A stretch of DNA of 64,000 bases from Crocinitomicaceae bacterium (GTDB lineage: Bacteria > Bacteroidota > Bacteroidia > Flavobacteriales_D > Crocinitomicaceae): contig JAQVCM010000010.1 in assembly GCA_028689775.1 (NCBI GenBank), positions 91,044 to 155,043 of the forward strand, read 5' to 3'. Below are positions 38,329 to 43,290 of this stretch, piece by piece; position 1 is the stretch's first letter, and the number at the start of each line of letters is the position of its first letter. Both the position numbers and the translations under genes were made by a program. The notes below the pieces were generated by a model. That model saw only the letters and a program-made list of their open reading frames with translations. It was not told the DNA's origin and ran no database searches.

Positions 38329-40803
38329 TTACAATTTAAAAGTCACGCGACCCAAAACATTAACTCCCGCTTGCGGAAAGTAGAAATTCTCGTTAATTGT
38401 TTCTCCTGAAGAGATGTAACTATAGGTATAACCATTGTTTTCAAACATGTAATTGAAAACGTTATTCACCAACAATCCAAATTGAACTTCTTTGAAGAAG
38501 GTGTTTTTCAACGTGTAATCTACACTCAAATTTGTCAAGAAATACTCATTCAACATTTTACGATCGCTGGAAGTATTGTCCATGAACTGTTTTCCGACAT
38601 ATTTTGTCAACACGTTGAAATTTAGATTTTTTATTGGTTCGTAATTCAACCCAAGTGTTGCAATCAAATTAGGTGTAAAAGCCAAATCGGTATTTCTGTG
38701 AATCGTTTCTACTTGACCTCCGTTGTCATAATCGTCAATGTATTCTTTGAATTCTTTGATTTTATTTTGACTCAAGGTGATGTTTCCTGTTAAACTTAAA
38801 TTCTTCAAGATTTTATATCCCGCTTCTAATTCAATTCCAGTTCGGTAACTTTCAGGTGTGTTGGTTCTCGTGTAACCACCTACATCGTTTATCTGTCCCG
38901 TTAAAATCAATTGGTTTTTGTAGTACATCAAGAAGTAATTCGCTGTCGCAAAGAAACGACTTGATTTTCTTTTGTAACCAGCTTCTAAGTTGTAAAGTTC
39001 TTCTGCTTTTGGACGATTAGCAGCTGTGTTTTCAATGAAATCTTTACGGATTGGTTCTCTATTGGCAACACTTACAGATGCGTACACATTGTTTTTTTCG
39101 TTGAAATCATACATCAATCCGGCTTTTGGATTGAAGAAGGTGTAGCTTACATTTTGCTGAACATCCAATTGTTGCCCATTTTCTTCTTGTACTCCTAAAA
39201 ATGAATACTGAATCGTACGAACTTGCATGTCTGCGTATAATTTGAATTTTTTGATTGCATACGTTGCTTTCACATACGAATTGGCATCTAGTTTATTGGA
39301 AGTGTTTTCATAATAACGATCTCCGATTTCAGAACTTGAAGCAACGCGAGCCCAAATAATTTCTCCGAAGTGATCTCCGGTATATTGATTAATTCCACCA
39401 CCCCAAGTTATTTGAAGGTTTTTCAAGTTGTTGTAATTTAACGACATAACCGTTCCGTAAAAATCATTATCCAACCATTTCTGTCGAATTAAATCAGTTC
39501 TGTTGATGGTTACGCCACCAATTACAACTGGTGTTAATCCGTAAGCACTGAATTTTGCATTGCTTTTATATTCTTCATAATATCCGCGACCTTTCGTATA
39601 ATGTCCTGAGATATTTACATTCAACTTATTGGTGAAGCGATGCGTGAAGTGCAATTGGTAATGATCCTGCTGATAATTATCAGTCTGATTTTCATAGGTA
39701 AACGAGTTGTATCTACGATCTGAATTCAATAAGTTTTCTCTATCTTCTTGCGACAAGCCATTTCGGTCTGCATAGGCATTCATTCCAGCAACATCATTCT
39801 TAATCCTGCTTTCTGGCGAACCGTTCCAAGCTTGATACGAAGTTTGTTTTCCGCTAAAAACATTCAAACGCAACAAGGATTTTTTACCAATCCAAGCACC
39901 TGAAAGGTAAAAAGATTTTAAGTTTGAATTGGCTCGGTCGATGTAACCGTCTGATGTAATTCTGGATAAACGGGTATCAACGGTAAACTTATTATTAATC
40001 AATCCGGTTCCAGCTTTCACGCTTGTTCTCAGTGTGTTAAATGATCCATACGCATTGTCTGATTCTGCATAACCTGTTTTGACTACTTGATCCGTTTTGA
40101 TGTTTAAACTTGCGCCAAAAGCAGCTGCTCCGTTGGAGGATGTTCCAACACCACGTTGAACTTGGATGCTTTCAGCAGAAGACGCAAAATCGGGCATATT
40201 CACCCAAAAAACGCCGTGAGATTCTCCATCATTAACGGGAATTCCATTAATCGTCACATTAGTTCTCGTTGGGTCAACACCACGAATTCGAACACCTGTG
40301 TAACCAACGCCAGCGCCAGCATCAGAAGAGACAACTGTTGAAGGAGTGCTTTCCAGCAAGTATGGTAAATCCTGTCCAAAATTTGCTTTTTCAATCTCTT
40401 TCTTTGTGAGATTGGAATAGGTAGTCGGCGTTTTTTCGTTTGCACGTGTTGCTGAAACTTGAATTTCTTCAATCAATTCTGCAGCTAAGTTCAATTGAAA
40501 ATTCACTTCTTGGTTTTTGCCATCGATTTTAATGGCTTTAAAATGTGATTCATAACCCGAAAGATTGGCTTCGAATTCATACGAATCATTTTTTAAATTA
40601 CTGATTTTGTAAAAACCCTCTGCATTGGTAAACGCAGTTTGATAGGTGTTGAGAATGGTAATTTTCGCACCAGAAAGAGCTTGTCCATCTTGGTTGATCA
40701 CTTTTCCTTGGATCTCATAGCGATTGGATTGGTTTTGTGCTTTCGCACCGATTGGCACCGCTAATGCAAGTGCGAATAACATTTTGAAAATTCTTGTTTT
40801 CAT
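38329..40803 (-). CDS. TonB-dependent receptor under TPP riboswitch control, probable thiamine receptor
   Basis: The 824-aa protein has a signal peptide (MKTRIFKMLFALALAVPIGA, cut near KAQ), a carboxypeptidase-like domain (IQGKVINQDGQALSGAKITI, about 30-110), a plug (VRIRGVDPTRTNVTINGIPV, QRGVGTSSNGAAAFGASLNI) and a barrel ending VNVLGRVTFKL. EIQVSATRANEKTPT before the plug is a possible TonB box region. A TPP riboswitch lies about 70 bases upstream of the ATG, so the gene should be repressed by thiamine diphosphate. This points to uptake of thiamine, its phosphates or a precursor; TPP-regulated TonB receptors are known in Bacteroidota. No inner-membrane partner (PnuT-like) is adjacent. Confidence 0.93.
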   Translation of the reverse strand: MKTRIFKMLFALALAVPIGAKAQNQSNRYEIQGKVINQDGQALSGAKITILNTYQTAFTNAEGFYKISNLKNDSYEFEANLSGYESHFKAIKIDGKNQEVNFQLNLAAELIEEIQVSATRANEKTPTTYSNLTKKEIEKANFGQDLPYLLESTPSTVVSSDAGAGVGYTGVRIRGVDPTRTNVTINGIPVNDGESHGVFWVNMPDFASSAESIQVQRGVGTSSNGAAAFGASLNIKTDQVVKTGYAESDNAYGSFNTLRTSVKAGTGLINNKFTVDTRLSRITSDGYIDRANSNLKSFYLSGAWIGKKSLLRLNVFSGKQTSYQAWNGSPESRIKNDVAGMNAYADRNGLSQEDRENLLNSDRRYNSFTYENQTDNYQQDHYQLHFTHRFTNKLNVNISGHYTKGRGYYEEYKSNAKFSAYGLTPVVIGGVTINRTDLIRQKWLDNDFYGTVMSLNYNNLKNLQITWGGGINQYTGDHFGEIIWARVASSSEIGDRYYENTSNKLDANSYVKATYAIKKFKLYADMQVRTIQYSFLGVQEENGQQLDVQQNVSYTFFNPKAGLMYDFNEKNNVYASVSVANREPIRKDFIENTAANRPKAEELYNLEAGYKRKSSRFFATANYFLMYYKNQLILTGQINDVGGYTRTNTPESYRTGIELEAGYKILKNLSLTGNITLSQNKIKEFKEYIDDYDNGGQVETIHRNTDLAFTPNLIATLGLNYEPIKNLNFNVLTKYVGKQFMDNTSSDRKMLNEYFLTNLSVDYTLKNTFFKEVQFGLLVNNVFNYMFENNGYTYSYISSGETINENFYFPQAGVNVLGRVTFKL

Positions 40804-40869
40804 TTTTAGAAAAACTTTAACAAGAACAAGGGGCTAATTCTTTGGATGAATAATTAGCTTAATATAAAT

Positions 40870-40950
40870 TGGTCACTTCCCTTCGCAGGCATTATCCTGA
40901 GCAGGTACAATGGGTATAATCTCAGCCTTTTCACGGGCACCCCTTAGAGA
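40870..40950 (-). ncRNA. TPP (THI-element) riboswitch
   Basis: On the minus strand, the conserved blocks occur in order: AAGGGGTGCCC (40935-40945), CTGAGA (40920-40925), ACCC (40912-40915), ACCTG..GGATAATGCC (40888-40906) and GCGAAGGGAA (40877-40886). This matches the thiamine diphosphate aptamer. Downstream, before the ATG, GCTAATT..AATTAGC forms a hairpin followed by CCCCTT, which could pair with the AAGGG of the aptamer's closing strand. That switch mechanism is inference. Confidence 0.95.
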
Positions 40951-40956
40951 ACGCCG

Positions 40957-40988
40957 CAAAGGTATGTGATTAAAATTGATAATTCCAA
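40957..40988 (-). promoter_or_regulatory. Promoter of the TPP riboswitch-receptor transcript
   Basis: The minus strand has TACCTTTG (40957-40964), an exact TAnnTTTG box, with a TTGG-like element about 21 bases upstream (40986-40988). Transcription would begin near 40950, right at the start of the aptamer. Confidence 0.65.
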
Positions 40989-41075
40989 GGAATTTAAAAA
41001 GAGATTTATTTTAAAAGTGTAAAATGTTGATTTCGAGCATATCTGTCGATGTTTTATCTAGTTTAATTGCTGATA

Positions 41076-41126
41076 TTTTTTTTATTGTAGAGCCGCTATG
41101 CATTGCGGCTCTACAATAAAAAAAAA
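41076..41126. terminator. Perfect inverted repeat: bidirectional terminator-like palindrome
   Basis: Arms ATTGTAGAGCCGC / GCGGCTCTACAAT flank a TATGCATT loop and are extended by T8 and A9-10 tracts, giving about 21 bp of perfect pairing (41076-41096 with 41105-41125). It follows dnaX (minus) by about 90 bases and fits a terminator in both directions. The GTAGAG..CTCTAC palindrome with TGCATT centre also looks like a dispersed repeat. Confidence 0.7.
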
Positions 41127-41218
41127 CAATTCCTTGCATCAGAACCTGTCTTTCTGAAAAATTTGAAAAGAAATTTGGGGAATTTTTTTTGAATGTCAAA
41201 TTTTACGTATCAGATATT

Positions 41219-42960
41219 CTAAAACTCTAAATCCAAATTAAACGTCTTTTGCAAGGTGATCAAATTCACATTTCTCTCCGCCAAAATATTGAATTTATCT
41301 TTTCCTGTCAGCATTTTATTAGTCTCTTCATCCGGCGTTTCATTGATGGTAAACTCAACTTCGATTGCCCAATTCTGCAATTTATTTCGAAGGAAATCGA
41401 TCAACAATGGTGCGAATTGAGATTGCATGATACTCAACTGAATGGCATTGTCAAGCTCCAAATGAATTTTACCCATTTCAGGCATTTTCGGATCCCGTTT
41501 CGTTAAACAAGAACTAATTGTTTCAGCACCATCCAATTGATCTGCTTTGATTTTAAAGGCAAATTGACGGACATACATTTTTAGGTCATCCAATGAAAAT
41601 GGATTTTTAGGACGGTTCGCTAAATCTTCAGAAGAAGGTTGTGCATTTTCTTTATCCTGCGCCTGCATTTCCGAAATGGAAATGTGACGTGTTTGCAGAT
41701 TTCCAGTAGGAGCGTGCAAGACTTTTGCCTCTTTTTTGAAGGTCATTGGAGCACGTTCTTGAGCTTGTGCTGGCTTTCCCGCAGGTTTTCCAGCTGCAGG
41801 TCTTAATGATTGTCCTGGAAACGGAATGATTTCTACTGGGTCAGAGAATCCTTTTTTTTTTCGAGTTCTTGTTTGACAGAACACAATTGCATCAAAGCCA
41901 ATTCAACCAACAAACGTTGATTTTTGGATGCTTTGTATTCTACATCTGTTTTACTTAAAACAGTCAGACAACGTAAAATATAATCAGAATCCAAGATTTT
42001 AGCTTGTTCGATGTAACGATTTTCAACGCTTTCACCAACTTCTAATAATTTTGCTGTTCGAACGTCTTTACAAACCAATAAATTCCTGTAATGATCAGCC
42101 AATCCAACAACAAAGTTGTGACCGTCAAAACCGCGTTCTTGTATGTCGTTGTAAAGCAAAATCGCTGCTGGAATATCTTCCTTCATTGCAGCTTCTACAA
42201 TGCGAAAGTAATAATCGTAATCTAGAATATTTAAATTCTCTAATACTGCTGCAAGCGTAATCTTATTTCCTGCGAAACTAACAATTTGATCGTAAATCGA
42301 CAAAGCATCACGCAAAGCACCGTCGGCTTTTTGACCAATTAAATGCAACGCTTCTGCCTCTGCTTCAATACCTTCTTTAACAGAAATGTTTGCCAAATGA
42401 TCTGCGATGTCTTTCACTTTGATTCGATTGAAATCAAAAATCTGACAACGAGATAAAATCGTAGGAATAATTTTGTGTTTTTCTGTGGTCGCTAAAATGA
42501 AAATAGCGTGTGGTGGCGGCTCTTCTAGTGTTTTCAAAAATGCATTGAAAGCAGCAGAGGATAACATGTGGACCTCATCGATGATATACACTTTTCGAGT
42601 TCCAATTTGAGGCGCAATTCGCACTTGATCAATCAAGCTTCGGATATCCTCAACACCGTTGTTGGAGGCAGCATCTAATTCGTAAACGTTTAGAGAAGCG
42701 CCTTCGTTGAATGAAAGACAAGAATCGCATTGATCGCAAGCTTCAATTTCTTCCGTTGGATTAAAACAGTTAACCGTTTTAGCCAATATTCGTGCAGTGG
42801 TCGTTTTACCAACACCACGTGAACCGCAAAATAAAAAAGATTGTGCAAGATGGTTGGTCTTAATCGCACTCTTCAAGGTTGAAGTGATTGATTTTTGACC
42901 GACAACAGTTTCAAAAGTCTGAGGTCTATATTTTCTTGCCGAAACGATAAATTCTTCCAT
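41219..42960 (-). CDS. dnaX: DNA polymerase III subunit gamma/tau, with probable frameshift at an A10 run
   Basis: The clamp-loader ATPase starts MEEFIVSARKYRPQTFETVV. It has Walker A GSRGVGKTTTAR, the Cys4 zinc module CFNPTEEIEACDQCDSC, Walker B VYIIDEVHMLS and SRC box ILSRCQIF. The zero frame ends after 375 residues (stop 41833-41835) just past an A10 run (plus-strand T10 at 41852-41861). The run contains A-AAA-AAG in frame. A -1 shift there joins to a second open frame through FSDPVEIIPFPGQSLRP to QKTFNLDLEF (stop at 41219), giving about 580 residues with a tau-like C-terminal region. Both products may be made, or the run may be a sequence error; see findings. Confidence 0.9.
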
Positions 42961-43290
42961 GCTCCCACAAAGATAAAAAGACTTTTTTAATAAGTCCTTG
43001 TTGTGAAGAATTTAATTTTGAAATTGATGTAAATAACTGAATATAATAGGATTATATTTTATTTGTTAAGTTTTTAAATCCATTTATGGATAGTTTAAAT
43101 TGCTTCTTAAGAAAGGAGCGTAGCTCTGTTTTCTTTTGGTATGTTTTTCGTTTGTTTTTGTGATATAGATTAACATTCAATAGGCTCTCAAAGAATTCAC
43201 CACTACGTGGCTTTGTTGAAAATTATAAATGAAAAATCTCTTCAAACTTCTTTGCGGTAAAAAAAGTATCAATTAGGGATAATTAAAACT
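42961..43290. other. Intergenic region between truA and dnaX
   Basis: This 330-base gap contains the dnaX promoter (-7 box at 42968-42975) and fragments resembling the dispersed repeats: cattcaatagg near 43174 and ctttgcggtaaa near 43250. No gene was recognised. Confidence 0.5.
42968..42975 (-). promoter_or_regulatory. -7 element of dnaX, very close to the start codon
   Basis: The minus strand TATCTTTG is an exact TAnnTTTG box ending only 7 bases before the dnaX ATG (42960). The transcript would be leaderless or nearly so. No good -33 TTTG is seen at the right distance. Confidence 0.5.

Follow-up and report, generated by a model that had tools for sequence, protein, structure and literature searches.

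A split dnaX gene with a conserved A10 run in Crocinitomicaceae: likely transcriptional slippage yielding gamma and tau

In a genomic window from a Crocinitomicaceae bacterium (the whole stretch of 64,000 nt that was analysed), the dnaX gene is split into two open reading frames (ORFs) at a run of ten A. From the comparison of this hinge across the phylum, it is likely that RNA polymerase slips on the A10 run, one gene thereby yielding both gamma and tau. The window belongs to contig C24 of a draft genome (3.47 Mb, 48 contigs). Its best-matching named loci (best 80 of 591 matches) come from metagenome-derived Bacteroidota genomes; most carry the label Flavobacteriales, and one that of Crocinitomicaceae.

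Two halves of one dnaX gene

The features of the gene are listed in Table 1. On the minus strand, the hinge reads ...GAA CTC GAA AAA AAA AAG GAT TCT CTG ACC CAG TAG. The original prediction had described this gene as dnaX, with a run of ten A, a zero frame stopping five codons later and a -1 frame open for 210 codons, and the sequence confirms this description. The zero-frame product matched positions 1-371 of the 614 positions of NCBIfam PRK14971 (E 2.6e-202), with a score of 674 bits, just below the whole-protein cut-off of 685 bits. It also matched NCBIfam dnaX_nterm (427 bits for a cut-off of 250) and, above cut-off, the Pfam families DNAX_ATPase_lid and DNA_pol3_gamma3, which together cover the ATPase, the lid and domain III. 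The Pfam domain III of gamma/tau spans residues 235-369, and the zero-frame product ends just beyond it. The -1 tail matched the last 170 positions of PRK14971 (444-613 of 614; E 9.8e-17), and no Pfam family was matched by this tail. The two ORFs match the start and the end of the same NCBIfam dnaX family; they therefore encode gamma and the tail of tau as parts of a single gene, of which a single full-score match was found in the whole genome. The frames also bear out the proposal that gamma lies in the zero frame and tau in the -1 frame, an order opposite to that of E. coli. Because both ORFs belong to a single gene, gene callers will break dnaX in two in genomes of this kind.

Table 1. Coordinates of the dnaX features in the window, and loci of the relatives that are split without an A run
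Feature	Position	Strand	Remark
dnaX zero frame, gamma-like product	42960-41833	-	375 codons, 42.0 kDa, domains I-III
A10 run, proposed slippage site	41861-41852	-	T10 on the plus strand; kept in relatives
A-AAA-AAG heptamer	41857-41851	-	in zero frame at the end of the run; not conserved in the family
Zero-frame stop TAG	41833-41835	-	five codons after AAG
Stop TGA closing the third (+1) frame	41841-41843	-	just past the run; from sequence and closure test
Tau tail, -1 frame	41851-41222, stop 41221-41219	-	210 codons, 23.7 kDa
TTTCCAG..CTGGAAA, candidate stem of the original prediction	41787-41821	-	not conserved in the genus
Run-less loci (L221-L228, L230-L236, L238)			

An AlphaFold model of the tail, based on 54 sequences, had a mean pLDDT of 84 and a pTM of 0.56, with a well-predicted C-terminal domain. 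When this model was used in a fold search, DnaA domain I ranked first with a weak match (E 0.07; TM 0.71 by target length), and nothing reached an E of 0.001 or better. A profile search of the tail against solved structures gave four hits, none of them convincing (best E 0.28; DnaA domain I, E 0.93).

Two other elements were observed near the gene. The gap after dnaX contains an inverted repeat (41076-41125) with 25-nt arms, 96% complementary and without spacer, which is perhaps a two-way terminator. An 824-codon ORF (40803-38329) presumably encodes an outer-membrane TonB-dependent receptor. A TPP riboswitch (40860-40954, minus strand; Rfam RF00059, 58.4 bits) lies just before this ORF.

Conservation of the run and of the split in the family

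We then read the hinge in related genomes. In total, 233 gene stretches were read from 232 genomes, and seven that could not be framed (truncated or broken) were dropped, leaving 226 framed genes; one locus with two long open frames (L190) was assigned to -1 by hand. For the family, 150 genomes were drawn, of which 146 matched and 145 were read (G148 was left out), giving 139 framed gene copies. Outside the family, we read 40 of the 47 matching genomes of the order and 47 of the 94 further matching genomes of the phylum. All counts below concern related sequences, which are not independent.

A run of at least nine A (range 9-13) was found at the hinge in 123 of the 139 family copies, the other 16 having no run of nine or more A. 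The original prediction had named an uninterrupted dnaX in close relatives as a refutation; all five genomes of the genus are split, as are 122 of the 123 run-bearing family copies, and 121 of these have the tail at -1 after a run of 10-13 A. The two odd copies are G052 (A11, in frame) and G101 (A9, tail at +1). In three genomes of the genus (G002, G003 and G004), the A10 of the window and its following G are replaced by A11 with an unchanged frame relation, as a substitution would give, which speaks against a local error.

The run at the hinge is commoner than chance predicts. Over 384,709 nt outside the hinge, the 226 dnaX genes contain five A9 runs, and none of their A or T runs reaches ten; the whole genome of the window contains 14 separate A/T runs of at least ten, the hinge run included. 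Other A10 runs in this genome lie within open frames of 478, 289 and 669 codons (L372, L381 and L383) and may be further slippage genes or tolerated runs.

The codons of the run are nearly fixed in the 121 family genes. Codons 368 and 369 are AAA in all of them; at codon 367, 116 genes have GAA, 5 have CAA and none has GAG, so that glutamate is encoded by GAA each time (116/116). The base that follows the run is variable (G in 51, T in 44 and C in 26). A-AAA-AAG is thus present in the window but not conserved. Two codons before the run, at codon 365, glutamate is encoded by GAG in 110 of 118 family genes, compared with 24% in the gene body, which makes it the second strongest bias among 116 two-fold positions. 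Unlike most family genes, the window has GAA there. Outside the family, the corresponding codon is GAG in just 11 of 77 run-bearing genes, including three +1 genes of f3 and one of f6, and we did not adopt it as a stimulator. The bias points to a local constraint, possibly a signal read by the polymerase or by the ribosome, in the latter case perhaps Shine-Dalgarno-like; 32 of the 121 family genes have a Shine-Dalgarno-like match within 24 nt upstream of the run.

The frame of the tail across the phylum

Outside the family, a run of 9-11 A was present in 77 of the 87 framed genes. Each of the ten run-less genes is read in a single frame; nine lie outside the class. Among the A10 genes outside the family, the tail is in frame 0 in 27, at -1 in 30 and at +1 in 8; 20 of the 47 further phylum genomes were hand-picked, many for a short-looking open frame, and these shares are therefore not a fair sample of the phylum. 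Among named species, examples from Pedobacter, Hymenobacter and Chitinophaga have A10 in frame, and two Flavobacterium species (L084 and L086) have A10 with the tail at -1. Among the named loci (80 of 591 matches, which may overlap the other genomes sampled), 66 carry a run of at least nine A with a readable frame (49 at 0, 16 at -1 and 1 at +1), 2 carry a run with an unreadable frame and 12 are run-less.

To count frame changes, we used a DnaX tree of 136 rows, built from the N-terminal part only by a quick search under LG+G4, in which no family genus is represented by more than two run-bearing genomes, L089, L114 and L210 aside; 42 of its 132 inner branches are weakly supported. This tree requires at least 18 frame changes within the 88 A10 rows, and 21 within all 110 run-bearing rows (19 without G052 and G101). 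Selection seems to keep the run, not the template frame.

Stops and candidate signals around the run

In the family, both frames other than that of the tail are closed within six codons of the run in 121 of 121 genes with the tail at -1, compared with 17.5% at control places. Outside the family, this was the case in 27 of 34 frame-0 genes and in 27 of 35 -1 genes, closure at control places in the same tails being 10-18%. It was weaker in the +1 genes, 3 of 8 being closed within this distance. In the family, part of the stop pattern may be due to conserved residues downstream of the run.

The original prediction had been doubtful about the only paired element seen downstream of the run, TTTCCAG..CTGGAAA, and this doubt was justified. 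Both arms were found in one of the five genus genomes, and downstream folding was like that of controls (mean z -0.42, n = 30, vs. -0.31, n = 90). These results gave the stem no support; as it is not conserved in the genus, it is probably not part of the mechanism. A search of Rfam at the gathering score over positions 40600-43200 detected no frameshift element, the TPP riboswitch being the sole entry.

Transcriptional slippage and its alternatives

Under transcriptional slippage, transcripts with the templated A10 would follow the zero frame, whose end five codons later, just past domain III, gives gamma. Transcripts with one additional A (or two fewer) would join the zero frame to the -1 tail and give a tau of about 580 residues, and those shifted to the third frame would meet a stop immediately, which would yield a further gamma-like product. 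This would be the Thermus mechanism with the templated and slipped products exchanged.

The main alternative is programmed -1 ribosomal frameshifting at A-AAA-AAN, similar to that of E. coli dnaX, tau then being the shifted, long form. We consider it unlikely as the sole source of tau. An A-AAA-AAG in frame is present in the window, a strongly biased GAG lies about eight bases before the heptamer in the family, and the shift has a nearly fixed direction (-1 in 121 of 123 run-bearing family genes), which speaks for ribosomal shifting under the rule given by Antonov et al. (2013; PMC3711429). However, the G that completes the heptamer follows the run in fewer than half of the family genes, the stem is not conserved and downstream structure is not in excess. 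The run also exceeds what a -1 heptamer needs, as codons 367-369 show, which is a point for slippage. Moreover, A10 is also kept in genes with the tail at 0 or +1; since the run is kept whatever the frame, a -1 ribosomal site alone is an insufficient explanation. The Flavobacterium ribosomes examined so far rely little on anti-Shine-Dalgarno pairing (McNutt 2021), and frameshifting is reportedly low at the prfB site of F. johnsoniae (PMC12421855). Because the frame changes at constant run length, the heptamer is not conserved and there is no conserved stem, the comparison favours slippage over E. coli-type ribosomal frameshifting, with a possible ribosomal share. The original prediction had regarded slippage as being as likely as ribosomal shifting; slippage stands as a serious candidate, and putting the two on an equal footing appears too cautious.

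Two further explanations are far less probable. The tail could be a separate protein, made from its own start or by stop-start coupling without fusion into tau, and a start codon does overlap the zero-frame stop in 3 of 16 run-less genomes. However, 72 of the 121 run-bearing family genes lack any ATG, GTG or TTG in the open tail frame as far as 45 nt beyond the zero-frame stop. The window has its closest starts 49 nt before this stop (GTG) and 89 nt after it (ATG), and the four relatives in the genus have no start as far as 90 nt beyond it. In addition, the whole of tau is in one frame in other families of the phylum. We hold a separate tail to be very improbable for the run-bearing genes. It is just as hard to retain a sequencing error, a pseudogene or DNA phase variation by change of run length. 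In their favour, runs such as A10 mutate easily and are prone to error, the genome assembly is a draft of 48 contigs, and G052 and G101, unlike their relatives, may be errors or real variants. Against this, the split is found throughout the genus and in all but one of the run-bearing family copies, 121 of which share one frame relation, and also in the single-contig genomes G060, G070 and G095. The tail is conserved as a protein, and the single full-score dnaX match leaves no second copy of that score in the genome. Under phase variation, assemblies would spread over the frames. Sequencing error, pseudogene and phase variation were rejected on the conservation of the split and of the run. Slippage on A10 is the most probable reading for the dnaX gene of the window.

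A sub-clade without the run

In 16 family genomes from five genera (g5, g9, g12, g20 and g23), dnaX is split and has no A run (Table 1); one of them, G008, is a single-contig genome. These genomes keep the split, which therefore does not always depend on slippage. The tree places them in a single fork that also includes a run-bearing genus (g24); two changes were counted, and a single loss is possible. In 6 of the 16 genomes, the tail frame opens just 10 nt before the zero-frame stop, and no slippery heptamer was seen in these 10-nt stretches. Three loci have a start codon in overlap with this stop, namely L225 (ATGA), L233 (GTGA) and L238 (TAATG). In the other 13, the first base of an ATC lies four bases ahead of the first base of the stop. 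ATC occupies this tail position in 14 of 16 genomes, compared with 109 of 541 isoleucine codons in the gene body, these genomes being related and the sample not independent. In L221, L223 and L230, AAGGAGG lies four bases before the ATC; an A-AAA-AAG in frame is also present in these three loci, and ribosomal shifting is therefore possible there.

Downstream folding was not unusual in the run-less genomes (z from -1.53 to 1.37), and an alignment of three of the run-less loci gave nothing beyond the locus-by-locus reading. A run-less query against 239 family genomes (E up to 1e-172) detected no further genome of these genera, G026 being below the cut-off. We also considered a cassette like that of prfB (AGGAGG UAU CUU UGA C), and rejected it for a misfit of register, because the tail is at -1 and not at +1.

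The run-less split is possibly a case of stop-start coupling and gene fission, a suggestion drawn from the sequences and less sure than the main claim. More tentatively still, the phylum hinge might be an ancient, frame-blind slippage switch in which gamma and tau alternate as the templated product. The run-less branch (16 genomes, 5 genera) would then have lost the switch but kept the split. Its C-terminal part of tau would be a protein of its own, made by stop-start coupling and in many cases begun at a non-canonical AUC codon, the clamp-loader gene being in the course of fission. We regard this wider scenario as doubtful. The branch nevertheless offers a natural experiment on whether the tail of tau must be covalently tied to the clamp loader.

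Comparison with known systems

Few cases of programmed transcriptional slippage have been described, and the present set adds a large comparative sample to them. It also suggests a reading rule, namely that the run is conserved and the frame is not. The wide keeping of the run suggests that gamma and tau both matter to the replisome of the phylum. In the open-licence literature, we found no report of phylum-wide frame flipping at constant run length, nor of a split group without the run.

Thermus and E. coli provide the classical dnaX cases. In Thermus thermophilus, according to later papers that cite Larsen et al. (2000), dnaX undergoes transcriptional slippage, the template encoding tau and slippage giving gamma. 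The hinge described here resembles it by a conserved run of at least nine A (123/139 in the family and 77/87 outside) and by nearby stops in the frames other than that of tau, found in every one of the 121 family genes. It differs in that tau is in one template frame in Thermus, whereas the window has gamma as the templated product, with the tail of tau at -1. With the -1 ribosomal frameshift of E. coli, the window shares the gene, the two products and A-AAA-AAG in frame. However, gamma is the shifted product in E. coli and the zero-frame product here, and neither the heptamer nor the stem is conserved in the relatives of the window.

Tau as the shifted product in some bacteria is mentioned in the review by Atkins (2016). 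Antonov et al. (2013) described 17 dnaX genes from 12 genera as needing recoding for tau, nine of them with ten A, and proposed slippage. The window is like these genes in its two adjacent ORFs, the -1 relation at the DNA level, the A10 at the junction and the recoded tau. The reversed A10 layout is thus already in print, and the window is a further case of it; compared with the 17 genes of that paper, the run is traced here through 226 framed genes and three tail frames.
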